A stretch of 32,352 nt of DNA from a virus. The notes under the pieces were generated by a model. That model ran no database searches, was not told the origin of the DNA, and saw nothing but the letters and a program-made list of their open reading frames with translations. Of the stretch, positions 482 through 26,281 are shown piece after piece. The stretch covers positions 1-32,352 of IMG/VR virus record IMGVR_UViG_3300037189_022604; one strand, given 5' to 3'. Numbering within the stretch: position 1 is the stretch's first letter; every line of letters starts with the position of its first letter. The position numbers and the translations under genes were made by a program.

Positions 482-1135
482 TTACCGACTCGGCCCTCCA
501 ATCATTAACAAATCAGGCTTAAATACGTCTTTAACATCTGTTGAAGGCTCAAACGTAGCATATCTGTCGTCCTGCGGCACTCGCAGTATTACCCCCTTAC
601 CGATATCATCCAGCGCCTTACTCATTAGCTGGACGCCAATGTTCATCAACTGGTCACGCCACAATATGCGCGCTGCCTCCCTAGGATGCTTATAGTACAG
701 TACCGGGTCAATAAAGCACCAGTCCTGGTACGCTATATCGCCCCGATCGATGCCATTGTTTAGCCAAAATACCGTGCCCCCTGTTACTGGCTCCTTCATT
801 CGTATAGCCCACTCAATGGCCGACTTGCCCCTATGCCTAGGCAATAGCGACGGGTGGTACCCTATCCAGCCCACCCGCGCCCTATACCGTGTTTTCTTGC
901 CAATGTAGTCGAAGGAATGCGCGGTAATGCCCAAGTCCACACCGCCCGGCATCGTGTCCGCATTAAGCGTTCCAGCGGGCAATATGGGCACTTCATTAAC
1001 CCTCGCAAGGTTACCTATGTACTTATCGCCTAGCGGGCAGCACACACCCACCACGTCGGCTTTTGCAAGACATAACCTTAACACCTCCTCTCCGAACTTC
1101 TTTTGCCCTGAAATAAAGACTTTCAACTTACTCAT
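482..1135 (-). CDS. Formyltransferase-like protein
   Basis: The 217-aa product resembles the catalytic domain of 10-formyltetrahydrofolate-dependent formyltransferases (Fmt, PurN, ArnA). The diagnostic block is YHPSLLPRHRG at 93-103, followed by TGGTVFWLNNGIDRGDIAYQ around 118-137. His94 and Asp130 match the usual catalytic His and Asp, but the Asn expected two residues before the His is Gly92. The Fmt C-terminal tRNA-binding domain is absent, so tRNA is an unlikely substrate. I chose ATG 1135 because an upstream in-frame start would lie deep inside the GNAT frame; ATG 1135 overlaps the GNAT stop by 8 nt, suggesting coupled translation. Substrate unknown; a role with the ABC/GNAT protein in base modification is inference. 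Confidence 0.7.
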   Translation of the reverse strand: MSKLKVFISGQKKFGEEVLRLCLAKADVVGVCCPLGDKYIGNLARVNEVPILPAGTLNADTMPGGVDLGITAHSFDYIGKKTRYRARVGWIGYHPSLLPRHRGKSAIEWAIRMKEPVTGGTVFWLNNGIDRGDIAYQDWCFIDPVLYYKHPREAARILWRDQLMNIGVQLMSKALDDIGKGVILRVPQDDRYATFEPSTDVKDVFKPDLLMIGGPSR

Positions 1136-1649
1136 CGCCTGCGTATTTAAATGCTTGTATCGCCCGGAAATGACCACCATACCCGGTGTTTCCGCTCTTG
1201 AAATTCTTAGACTTGCCCGTCCTGATGATACTGGCGGCGCTCCTCACTTTGTTGCTGCCGTAGAAATGCGCTGCCGTCTGCACCCAGCCTTTTGCCTTAC
1301 GCAGCGCCATGCAGAGCTGCGGGTGAGAGGTATGAAAGAACACGGGCAACTTGTGGCCACAACGCCCGTTACCATCCACATGATACTGGCATACGTACTT
1401 CAGGAACGCCATTCCTACCCCCGTGCCCTGCCACTCGGGCATTACCACCAGCCGTGTGGCCCTATAGGCCTTCGCCGTAAACATCGGACACACCGCAAGG
1501 TGGCACACCAGCTCGCCGTCTATCGTGCCTACAAAGTATTCGGCACAAGGTGGGTGCGCGAGGTCTAAATAGTAATGCGGCTTAAAGTAACGCCAGTAAC
1601 TTCCGTTGACCTTCCTAATTTCCAGCTCAATGGCTGGCCGCCTGGCAGT
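1128..1649 (-). CDS. GNAT-type acyltransferase domain, readable as -1 extension of the ABC ATPase
   Basis: In the -1 frame relative to the ABC gene, an open frame runs from the A10 tract to 1128. It reads TARRPAIELEIRKVNGSYWR, then FKPHYYLDLAH, FVGTIDGELVCHLAV and RLVVMPEWQGTGVGMAFL. The last block is a typical GNAT motif A (QGTGVG, the acyl-CoA pyrophosphate loop). No ATG opens the domain before GNAT strand 1; the first usable codon is a GTG at 1508, which would cut off a conserved N-terminal part. From memory, ABC-ATPase/GNAT composites with this W..F..H.YL linker are single proteins elsewhere. So this half is probably made by frameshifting, or the gene has a homopolymer indel. Mu Mom also has a GNAT fold, but I see no specific Mom signature. 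Confidence 0.65.
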   Translation of the reverse strand, partial: TARRPAIELEIRKVNGSYWRYFKPHYYLDLAHPPCAEYFVGTIDGELVCHLAVCPMFTAKAYRATRLVVMPEWQGTGVGMAFLKYVCQYHVDGNGRCGHKLPVFFHTSHPQLCMALRKAKGWVQTAAHFYGSNKVRSAASIIRTGKSKNFKSGNTGYGGHFRAIQAFKYAGDE

Positions 1650-2254
1650 TTTTTTTTTAATGAGGCCGTCCTCGTGTCATATACCCAGTCCGGCTGCAGC
1701 CAGTCTAGCACATCGTAGTGGCACGATAGCAGTATTACCTGCTTCCCTTTGTTCCTGCGCCATGCCTTAGCAAACGCCGCTGCTCCCACCTTGGCTATCT
1801 GCCGGTCAACCACGCTTGTAAATTCGTCCACCACTACCTTAACGGGCGCCTCTACCACCAGCCGCGCCAGCCCGGCTCTAAACTGCTCCCCGTTCGAGAG
1901 CACAGCAAATGGCCGCAACCATGCCGGCACATCCCCAAGCCCCACCGATGCCATCGCCCCGGTTACGGCCTTAAAATCGCCATCTGGTGCAATACAATCC
2001 ACAATCGGCTTGTCACGGTCCCAGCCCGCCGCAAGGTTATACACTGCATCCGCCCCCCACACTTGTTTGCCAAGGCTCGACTTACCGCTTCCTGATGGGC
2101 CAACGATAACGCCAATGCTCCAGTCGTCGCCCTCGATGGGCAGCTCTGCGGTGTGGTTCCATTCATAGCCCGTTTCCGCATTAAACAGGGCCTTAACTTT
2201 CTCCGCCCTGAAGGAGTCGTAGTTTTTGCAGCTGTGCCGCACTTCAATTTTCAT
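1565..2254 (-). CDS. ABC-type ATPase (N-terminal half of an ABC-GNAT protein)
   Basis: The 229-aa product is a soluble ABC ATPase. It has Walker A GPSGSGKSS (52-60), a signature-like LSNGEQ (119-124), Walker B VKVVVDEFTS (138-147) and an H-loop His in SCHYD (179). There are no membrane segments and no permease neighbour, so it is not a transporter. After LKKK at residue 202 the zero frame gives a 27-residue tail unlike family members, while the -1 frame continues into a GNAT domain. The start ATG overlaps the stop of the 52-aa gene as ATGA (2254-2251). Likely role: NTP-driven partner of the acyltransferase, possibly on DNA. Confidence 0.75.
   Translation of the reverse strand: MKIEVRHSCKNYDSFRAEKVKALFNAETGYEWNHTAELPIEGDDWSIGVIVGPSGSGKSSLGKQVWGADAVYNLAAGWDRDKPIVDCIAPDGDFKAVTGAMASVGLGDVPAWLRPFAVLSNGEQFRAGLARLVVEAPVKVVVDEFTSVVDRQIAKVGAAAFAKAWRRNKGKQVILLSCHYDVLDWLQPDWVYDTRTASLKKKLPGGQPLSWKLGRSTEVTGVTLSRITI
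1622..1660 (-). promoter_or_regulatory. A10 slippage tract with downstream hairpin
   Basis: On the minus strand the ABC frame reads TTA AAA AAA AAA CTG (ten consecutive A, 1658-1649). This contains A AAA AAA in the correct phase for -1 slippage and is long enough for RNA polymerase slippage. Eleven nt downstream a CCAGC/GCTGG hairpin (1637-1633 with 1626-1622) could stimulate shifting. A shift of -1 joins the ABC and GNAT frames. A sequencing error or a real one-base loss would look identical. Confidence 0.5.
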
Positions 2255-2409
2255 ACTGATACCACTTTTAGATTAGTAAATCCTTGTTTCTTGAGCCACT
2301 CAAACAGCTCCTTTTGTTTGCGTTCGGTCGCCACCTTAATGATTACCGCGTGCTGCTCATGGTACGTGAATTTGGCAGGCGCTTTCGGCTTACTCTCCAT
2401 CGCTTTCAT
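2251..2409 (-). CDS. Small protein opening the accessory cassette
   Basis: A 52-aa product starting MKAMESKPK, with a beta-alpha-beta-like pattern (HAVIIKVAT, then KQKELFEWLKKQGF, then LKVVSV). I do not recognise a family. I start it at ATG 2409 (ATG 2400 is an alternative) because longer versions would have to translate the terminator at 2420-2452. It overlaps the ABC gene by ATGA, so the three genes behave as one translational unit. It sits where Mu has com before mom, but it has no zinc-finger cysteines, so it is not a Com homologue. Confidence 0.55.
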   Translation of the reverse strand: MKAMESKPKAPAKFTYHEQHAVIIKVATERKQKELFEWLKKQGFTNLKVVSV

Positions 2410-17178: not shown

Positions 17179-17658
17179 ATGCCTGAAGAAACAAACACAA
17201 ATAGCGAGCTATCCGCCTCCCAAAAGCGCGAGTGGGCCATGCAACTTTACCTCCGCGACGACCTCACCCAAAAGCAAATCGCCGCCACCGTCGGGGTGTC
17301 GGAGAACACCATGAGCAAATGGGTCATAGAGGGTATGTGGGAGGGGCGTCGCAAAACTTTGCTCACTACCAGGGAGGAAATCATACGCGACCTGTACGAG
17401 GGCCTGTCGCGCCTAAACAAGGCCAATAAGGAGTCGCTGGAGGACGACGATCCCGAAACCGAGCCCAACTACGACGCCGTGTCCAAAATGACGCGAGCCA
17501 TCAAAAACCTCGAACGAGAAACCGGCATTGGGGATATGATTCACACCGCCCGCGCCCTTATAGACTTTGTCCGCACCGAAGATACCGAGGCCGCAAAAGT
17601 CATCAACAAATGGGCCGACTTGTTCATCAAAGACAAAATCAAGTCCGCCAAACTCTAA
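17179..17658 (+). CDS. Small terminase subunit
   Basis: A 159-aa protein. It has an N-terminal helix-turn-helix (LTQKQIAATVGVSENTMSKWV) that would bind the packaging site, followed by helical oligomerisation segments (EEIIRDLYEGLSRLNKANKE). It stands directly upstream of the large terminase gene, as usual. ATG 17179 is chosen; a TTG 6 nt upstream is possible. The protein directs headful packaging of host-flanked DNA in Mu-type phages. Confidence 0.75.
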   Translation: MPEETNTNSELSASQKREWAMQLYLRDDLTQKQIAATVGVSENTMSKWVIEGMWEGRRKTLLTTREEIIRDLYEGLSRLNKANKESLEDDDPETEPNYDAVSKMTRAIKNLERETGIGDMIHTARALIDFVRTEDTEAAKVINKWADLFIKDKIKSAKL

Positions 17659-17776
17659 CGACTATCCACTCTCGACTATCTACTCTCTACTTTCTACTAA
17701 CGACTCTCTACCCTCTACCAACGACTATCTACTATCTACTCTCTACTTTCTACTATCTACTAACAACCATCTACCA
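17659..17776 (+). repeat. CTATCTACT-type repeat upstream of large terminase
   Basis: 118 bp composed almost wholly of CTATCTACT, CTCTCTACTT and TACTAACGACT units, nearly without G on the plus strand, directly preceding the large-terminase ATG. A translated reading in frame with TerL gives a Ser/Thr/Tyr-rich prefix that I reject. Confidence 0.75.
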
Positions 17777-25788: not shown

Positions 25789-26190
25789 TTAAAGGGCCTT
25801 TAAAAACGACTTATACACGGCTTCAAATTGCGTCAGCAGCACCGTCAGCTCCTTCACGGTGTGGGCATTGAGCGGCTTCTTAAACTTGCCAAACTGCTCG
25901 CACCAGCCGGAGAGGCGCTGCATATCCACCTTTCGTGTGCCCGGCAGGTGCCAGCGCATCTCGTGGCAAATGGCCACCATTTTCCGGCGCATGCGCTGCT
26001 TGGCCTCGGCATCCGGGTCGGCACGTTGCAGGTGCTGGATGAGCTGCGTCGCCCCAGCCCGGTCCATCTTGCTCACACGCCCTTCGCTATTGGGGCTAAA
26101 CCCCAGCACAATCGCGTCCGCGTCCGGCGGGTTAATCCGCCCCATCATTGTCTTTATTGCCTTAATCTGCTCCTTTGTTATCGCTTCCAT
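25789..26190 (-). CDS. gemA: GemA/Mu gp16-like regulatory protein
   Basis: A 133-aa protein of the Mu gp16 (GemA, DUF1018) type. It has the N-terminal KEQIKAIKTMMGRINPPDAD, then MRRKMVAICHEMRWHLPGTR (the conserved R.K...IC...W) and a C-terminal SGWCEQFGKFKKPLNAHTVK helix pattern. In Mu GemA modifies host gene expression or supercoiling-dependent genes early in growth. It is followed by the presumed Mor-position gene, as in Mu. Confidence 0.7.
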   Translation of the reverse strand: MEAITKEQIKAIKTMMGRINPPDADAIVLGFSPNSEGRVSKMDRAGATQLIQHLQRADPDAEAKQRMRRKMVAICHEMRWHLPGTRKVDMQRLSGWCEQFGKFKKPLNAHTVKELTVLLTQFEAVYKSFLKAL

Positions 26191-26211
26191 ACCAGGTACT
26201 TTCTCCTTATT

Positions 26212-26281
26212 ACTTTTTACTCTCTACTATCTACTATCTACCATCTACTCTCTACTCTCTACCCTCTACTTTAGACTCTAA
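26212..26281 (+). repeat. CTATCTACT-type intergenic repeat in the early region
   Basis: About 70 bp of CTACTATCTACTATCTACCA-type units, without G on plus, between the gemA-like start and the stop of the next gene upstream. Here both flanking genes are minus, yet the repeat polarity is unchanged. Confidence 0.75.

Follow-up and report, generated by a model that had tools for sequence, protein, structure and literature searches.

Gene organization at the ABC-GNAT locus

The window analysed here spans the whole of IMG/VR virus record IMGVR_UViG_3300037189_022604 (32,352 nucleotides). Its minus strand encodes an ABC ATPase and a GNAT acyltransferase in different reading frames (Table 1). As a preliminary description had reported, and as direct reading bears out, the ABC frame runs into TTA AAA AAA AAA CTG, which contains exactly ten A (1658-1649). 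In the zero frame, a TAG stop follows 28 codons past this A10 tract. If A1649 is read twice (a -1 step), translation continues into TARRPAIELEIRKVNGSYWRYFKPHYYLD...QGTGVG...GDE. The GNAT reached in this way, whose full motif the same description had noted, is a complete domain, and the profile of PHROG 11143 (357 aa) covers both halves in order, placing the gene in this family (ABC, 3.1e-84, profile positions 1-193; GNAT, 1.3e-50, positions 198-351). The family carries the label function unknown. In the window, the -1 frame has its first ATG only after about 55 codons, within the GNAT domain.

The ABC half has a Walker A motif (GPSGSGKSS), a signature (LSNGE), a Walker B motif (VVVDEF) and an H-loop (SCHYD), and it scores 28.3 bits against Pfam ABC_tran PF00005 (cut-off 25), which identifies it as an ABC ATPase. 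The GNAT half is assigned to Pfam PF00583 by a marginal 20.9 bits (cut-off 20.7). Its Q/R-x-x-G-x-G/A motif is present as QGTGVG, and Q-G-x-G is invariant across the alignment. Sequence searches found no relatives of the GNAT with solved structures. The matches listed from a fold search with the long form were ordinary ABC ATPases only, and an AlphaFold2 model of the long form of a single-ORF relative (L029) shows an ABC plus a GNAT domain. A relationship to the Mom protein of phage Mu was considered and dropped, as sequence comparison detected no homology (hhalign probability 0.1%).

Table 1. Features of the ABC-GNAT locus in window coordinates
Feature	Coordinates	Strand	Evidence
Predicted short product, ABC ATPase plus tail of about 28 aa, 229 aa	1565..2254	-	Zero frame by direct reading, ATG 2254 to TAG 1567-1565; tail conserved
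Predicted long product, ABC-GNAT fusion, about 375 aa	1128..2254	-	-1 shift in A tract; single-ORF relatives of equal architecture
Candidate A10 slip site, in-phase A_AAA_AAA heptamers in TTA AAA AAA AAA CTG	1649..1658	-	Direct reading; relatives
GNAT acyltransferase domain, -1 frame, stop TAA 1130-1128	1128..1649	-	Translation; domain matches
Stretch putatively coding in two frames, for the GNAT N-terminus in -1 and for the conserved short-form tail in zero	1565..1649	-	z=29; synonymous constraint ends at TAG
Formyltransferase gene (Formyl_trans_N)	482..1135	-	1.9e-15
Small 52-aa ORF sharing ATGA with the ABC start	2251..2409	-	PHROG 28816, 1.9e-6

Downstream, the ATG of the formyltransferase gene (1135-1133) overlaps the end of the GNAT. 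Its translation may be coupled to that of the shifted, long product; because its start overlaps the GNAT stop, such coupling would depend on the long product. A formyltransferase lies directly downstream in 254 of the 305 loci with enough DNA, and it is found beside most ABC-GNAT genes, whether the GNAT is in the -1 frame or in the same ORF. A distant ABC-GNAT clade (L284-L307, about 35% identity) lacks this downstream gene. The window formyltransferase reads IGYHPSLLP where Fmt and PurN have N-x-H, and the usual Asn seems to be replaced. Upstream, the overlap of the small ORF with the ABC start is the same in 241/288 loci. The small ORF resembles the C-terminus of a longer gene of Gordonia phages annotated as a ParB-like nuclease (L085 gene 1). 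Elsewhere in the window, short repeats of the type CTACTCTCTACTAAC occur far apart at 17600-17720 and 26190-26280, with ORFs reading LLSTLYFLLSTNN and similar.

Two gene types share one join and one hidden tail

Relatives were collected from a viral scan and a genome scan, which contributed 80 loci each, and named phages were added. Among the 163 loci with both halves, the GNAT lies in the -1 frame relative to the ABC ATPase in 88 and in frame, as a single ORF, in 74. The preliminary description had suggested a search for single-ORF homologues and a comparison of their join; such homologues thus exist, and protein alignment places the join at the same residue, without a linker, in both types. 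An A6G or A7-A11 run lies inside the overlap of 86/88 of the -1 loci. An A run longer than six occurs in only one of the 74 in-frame loci (L028, A11), which is also the only locus out of phase at the tract. L019, L028, L053 and L069 look like single-indel cases and were left aside as indel or unclear, together with L280, L283, L346 and L349. Four further viral scans brought the total to 334 unique joins.

The -1 arrangement is constant among loci as little as about 60% identical. Many of these come from isolates, for example the complete chromosome of Chryseobacterium sp. ZHDP1 (L114), and wherever the host order is named the -1 loci belong to Bacteroidota, chiefly Flavobacteriia (16/16), including Chryseobacterium. 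In most -1 loci the edge of the domain offers no start codon that the GNAT could use.

The zero-frame tail beyond the A tract had been described as unrelated sequence. This does not hold, as both the tail and its stop are conserved. The tail frame ends inside the HYYL motif of the GNAT in both types, with a stop at the Leu codon of this motif in 248/248 unique single-ORF joins (TGA 112, TAG 98, TAA 38) and at the same place in 82 of 83 scored -1 joins. Elsewhere in the single-ORF genes, Leu codons give a stop in 13.6% of cases, and the HYYL stop is retained in 108/108 genes after thinning to <80% identity. Since three different stop codons are in use, it is termination itself that is kept at HYYL.

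Conservation of the hidden frame was assessed by permuting synonymous codons within each gene and scoring tail-frame similarity. This gave z=29.0 for the -1 group, z=29.5 for the single-ORF group and z=30 between the groups; these values ignore relatedness, and the point is their contrast with control stretches (z 2-6). The tail frame contains zero internal stops. In both groups synonymous constraint rises at the join and ends at the hidden stop, with observed/expected values of 1.4-2.1 over aa 200-230 and 1.00 at 235, five codons past that stop. The tails are alike, reading ...WKLGRSTEVTGVTLSRITI before the stop in the window and ...WKLGRSTEVIGDILSHIII in the single-ORF L029, and tails of the window type have about 28 aa ending I-T/I-I. 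AlphaFold2 predicts the tail of the short form to be disordered (pLDDT under 50). Internal initiation of the tail frame was considered and dropped, as inspection of the sequences found no universal start codon at the join. The earlier proposal that the natural protein is an ABC-GNAT composite stands insofar as single-ORF fusions exist; it falls short in that a short ABC ATPase with its own tail is conserved too, also in the single-ORF relatives.

In the single-ORF relatives the join carries a different motif, and a +1 shift at that point leads precisely into the tail frame. The pattern, with the majority form GGGGG-NNN-CTT-YGG-C, fits 221 of the 248 joins. Within these, CTT (179) and CCC (23) precede the stall codon, which is CGG (117), TGG (50) or CGA (27) in 194, and a C follows it in 212. 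The strict in-phase motif (SD+CTT/CCC-NGG-C) is present at the join of 48/108 thinned genes, against 1.1+-1.0 in synonymous shuffles, and was found once away from the join in these genes. The phage SL25 reads AGGGGG AGT CTT AGG C. From these features we infer that single-ORF relatives would make the short product by a +1 shift at this site. The features of an RF2-like +1 site occur in the single-ORF relatives only, and in Bacteroidota loci the SD-like part is missing: CTT-CGG-C is kept and the G-rich element is absent, whereas other phyla mostly have it. This fits the occluded anti-Shine-Dalgarno of Bacteroidia (PMC8710568). An altered anti-Shine-Dalgarno and the absence of the prfB frameshift have been reported for the Chryseobacterium family (PMC8710568).

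The same end of the alternative frame is seen in the distant named phages P335, Javan141, 9184, TR-TP1, pT24, SL25 and vB_VmeM-32. In the first four (L424-L431) the GNAT lies in the -1 frame of the ABC ATPase and is annotated as a separate gene, and the ABC frame stops at the same codon, after ...I(T/I)I. Because conserved GNAT residues precede the annotated GNAT start, these genes probably undergo frameshifting as well, at a slip site that is not an A tract. In a tree built without the join and overlap columns, with indel and long-branch rows removed, the -1 rows are nested in the single-ORF spread with 3 mode changes (5 in a first tree that kept the long branches). The +1/single-ORF state is therefore probably older than the -1 state. 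Given the matching ends and sites of P335, Javan141, 9184, TR-TP1 and SL25, the two-product design itself looks ancient.

Slippage mechanism and alternative explanations

We regard it as highly probable that the window gene is a conserved programmed frameshift gene with two products. An in-phase A_AAA_AAN heptamer, which conforms to X_XXY_YYZ, is present in 99/105 -1 loci (run lengths A6G, A7G, A9-A11). Zero-frame translation would yield the 229-aa ABC ATPase with its conserved tail, and some ribosomes would slip to -1 on A_AAA_AAA(G) and read on through the GNAT to give the ABC-GNAT fusion; both proteins would accumulate. Ribosomal -1 slippage is the most likely event in the window gene, so the ribosome, rather than RNA polymerase, would be what slips. 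Folding without pseudoknots detected no stable RNA structure 3' of the slip site (mean z -0.07, 28 loci), and no SD-like stimulator was evident in the -1 group. These negatives weigh against the two-product reading, as do the predicted disorder of the short tail and the lack of a G-rich element in the Bacteroidota single-ORF loci. Frameshift cases that lack a stimulator are known (PMC4066793).

RNA polymerase could instead add or drop an A in the A10 tract, giving mixed mRNA and the same two products. Transcriptional slippage on tracts of this kind has been described in IS elements and in Thermus dnaX (PMC5009743), and both the missing RNA stimulator and the A9-A11 runs, found in 68 of the 80 unique -1 loci and as A10 in the window, agree with it. 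The other 12 unique loci have A6G or A7G only, in exact A_AAA_AAG/A_AAA_AAA phase, and because such runs are too short for efficient polymerase slippage, tandem slippage by the ribosome is favoured. In the single-ORF relatives, moreover, a +1 event would have to take place at a site of the ribosomal type that has no homopolymer. We consider transcriptional slippage rather unlikely.

The preliminary description had left three options for the split: regulated slippage, a phase-variable switch or a plain indel. Fixation of the -1 type to about 60% identity upholds the first and counts against the other two. In favour of an indel from sequencing or assembly, or of a decayed pseudogene, homopolymers are error-prone and four loci resemble single-indel cases. 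Across the family the same phase recurs in about 100 loci, drawn from many different projects and isolates, which refutes an indel for the family, and the strongly constrained dual coding speaks against a pseudogene as well; we give this explanation practically no credence. Replication slippage in a contingency tract, switching the protein on and off, is suggested by the length of the A tract and by the gene's possible role in DNA modification. It would predict many on-phase copies, of which L028 alone is one, yet members with A6G, A7, A9, A10 and A11 are all in the -1 phase, and the conserved zero-frame tail of the -1 type would be left unexplained. Phase variation is thus very improbable.

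The constraint after the join could also reflect an RNA or DNA signal rather than a second coding frame, and parts of it are near-invariant in nucleotides (GTC AAC GGA AGT; CAT TAY TAT TTA). A nucleotide signal accounts poorly for a stop that is TAG, TAA or TGA and coincides with different Leu codons, for a tail frame free of internal stops, or for a constraint whose end matches the stop exactly in both groups despite their different slip sites, and a folding signal is absent. We judge this reading to be improbable and favour a second coding frame. In the -1 type the zero frame gives the short form, and in the +1 type it gives the long form; the family seems to make the short ABC plus tail and the long ABC-GNAT throughout, by -1 or +1 slippage.

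Predicted function and comparison with known systems

ABC ATPases act as dimers. The short and long forms could assemble as such dimers, in which the shift would set the GNAT domains per complex, as with gamma/tau in DnaX, and the short/long complex could acyl-modify phage DNA. We lean towards a scenario in which the two-form output is fixed while its signals are exchanged in evolution, and in which short and long forms work together in a single complex. Most phages would use an RF2/Ty1-like +1 site, those of Flavobacteriia-type hosts (some with an altered anti-Shine-Dalgarno) an A-tract -1 site, and P335-like phages a different -1 arrangement.

To our knowledge, the main known cases of programmed frameshifting in phages are tail assembly chaperones. 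If our reading is true, it would add an enzyme family, in phages of at least six host phyla. Two opposite recoding signals at one codon boundary, giving the same two proteins, would then form a natural experiment on recoding evolution and host-ribosome adaptation. For annotation, -1 genes look broken or split and single-ORF genes appear intact, yet a second product would be hidden in either type. It can now be asked whether the short form is needed for DNA modification and whether the choice of slip site tracks host anti-Shine-Dalgarno use. In the limited open-access literature we found no prior report of frameshifting in ABC-GNAT genes and no matches for COG2401, and the portions of the GeneTack and PRFect texts consulted do not mention such a frameshift.

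A jumbo-phage survey (PMC7824862) cites an earlier prediction that GNATs coupled to ABC ATPases acylate a DNA base, and it names Tenacibaculum phage pT24, a distant relative here; the function suggested for the ABC-GNAT genes is taken from this published prediction. That system likewise pairs an ABC ATPase with a GNAT in phages, but the frameshift, the short product and the formyltransferase partner go unmentioned in the text searched. As in com-mom of phage Mu, a gene for DNA modification would close the genome of a transposable phage and follow an overlapping small gene; the GNAT has no detectable sequence relation to Mom.

The closest parallel in design is dnaX of E. coli and Thermus, where slippage on A_AAA_AAG or on a long A tract lets one gene yield two proteins with a common ATPase, and where homologues differ in slip mechanism (PMC5009743). 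The proteins are unrelated, no hairpin or SD was found for the ABC-GNAT -1 site, and the short tail, of about 28 aa, is conserved. A further difference is that the -1 clade has its short form in the zero frame and that +1 seems to serve other relatives. The E. coli prfB (RF2) site, AGGGGG UAU CUU UGA C (PMC8710568), resembles the single-ORF relatives, a likeness that excludes the window: these have a G-rich element, a 3-nt spacer, CTT and a C at the seventh base (L029, AGGGGG TAT CTT CGG C). Unlike prfB, they have a sense CGG or TGG in place of UGA, and their shift would shorten rather than complete the protein. Compared with yeast Ty1 and ABP140, the ABC-GNAT genes come from bacterial phages, mostly have CGG or TGG and usually carry an SD-like element. 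They share with them CTT, a slow codon ending in GG and a +1 GGC (Ty1, CUU_AGG_C with +1 codon GGC; PMC5009743), and SL25 and vB_VmeM-32 have CTT AGG C.
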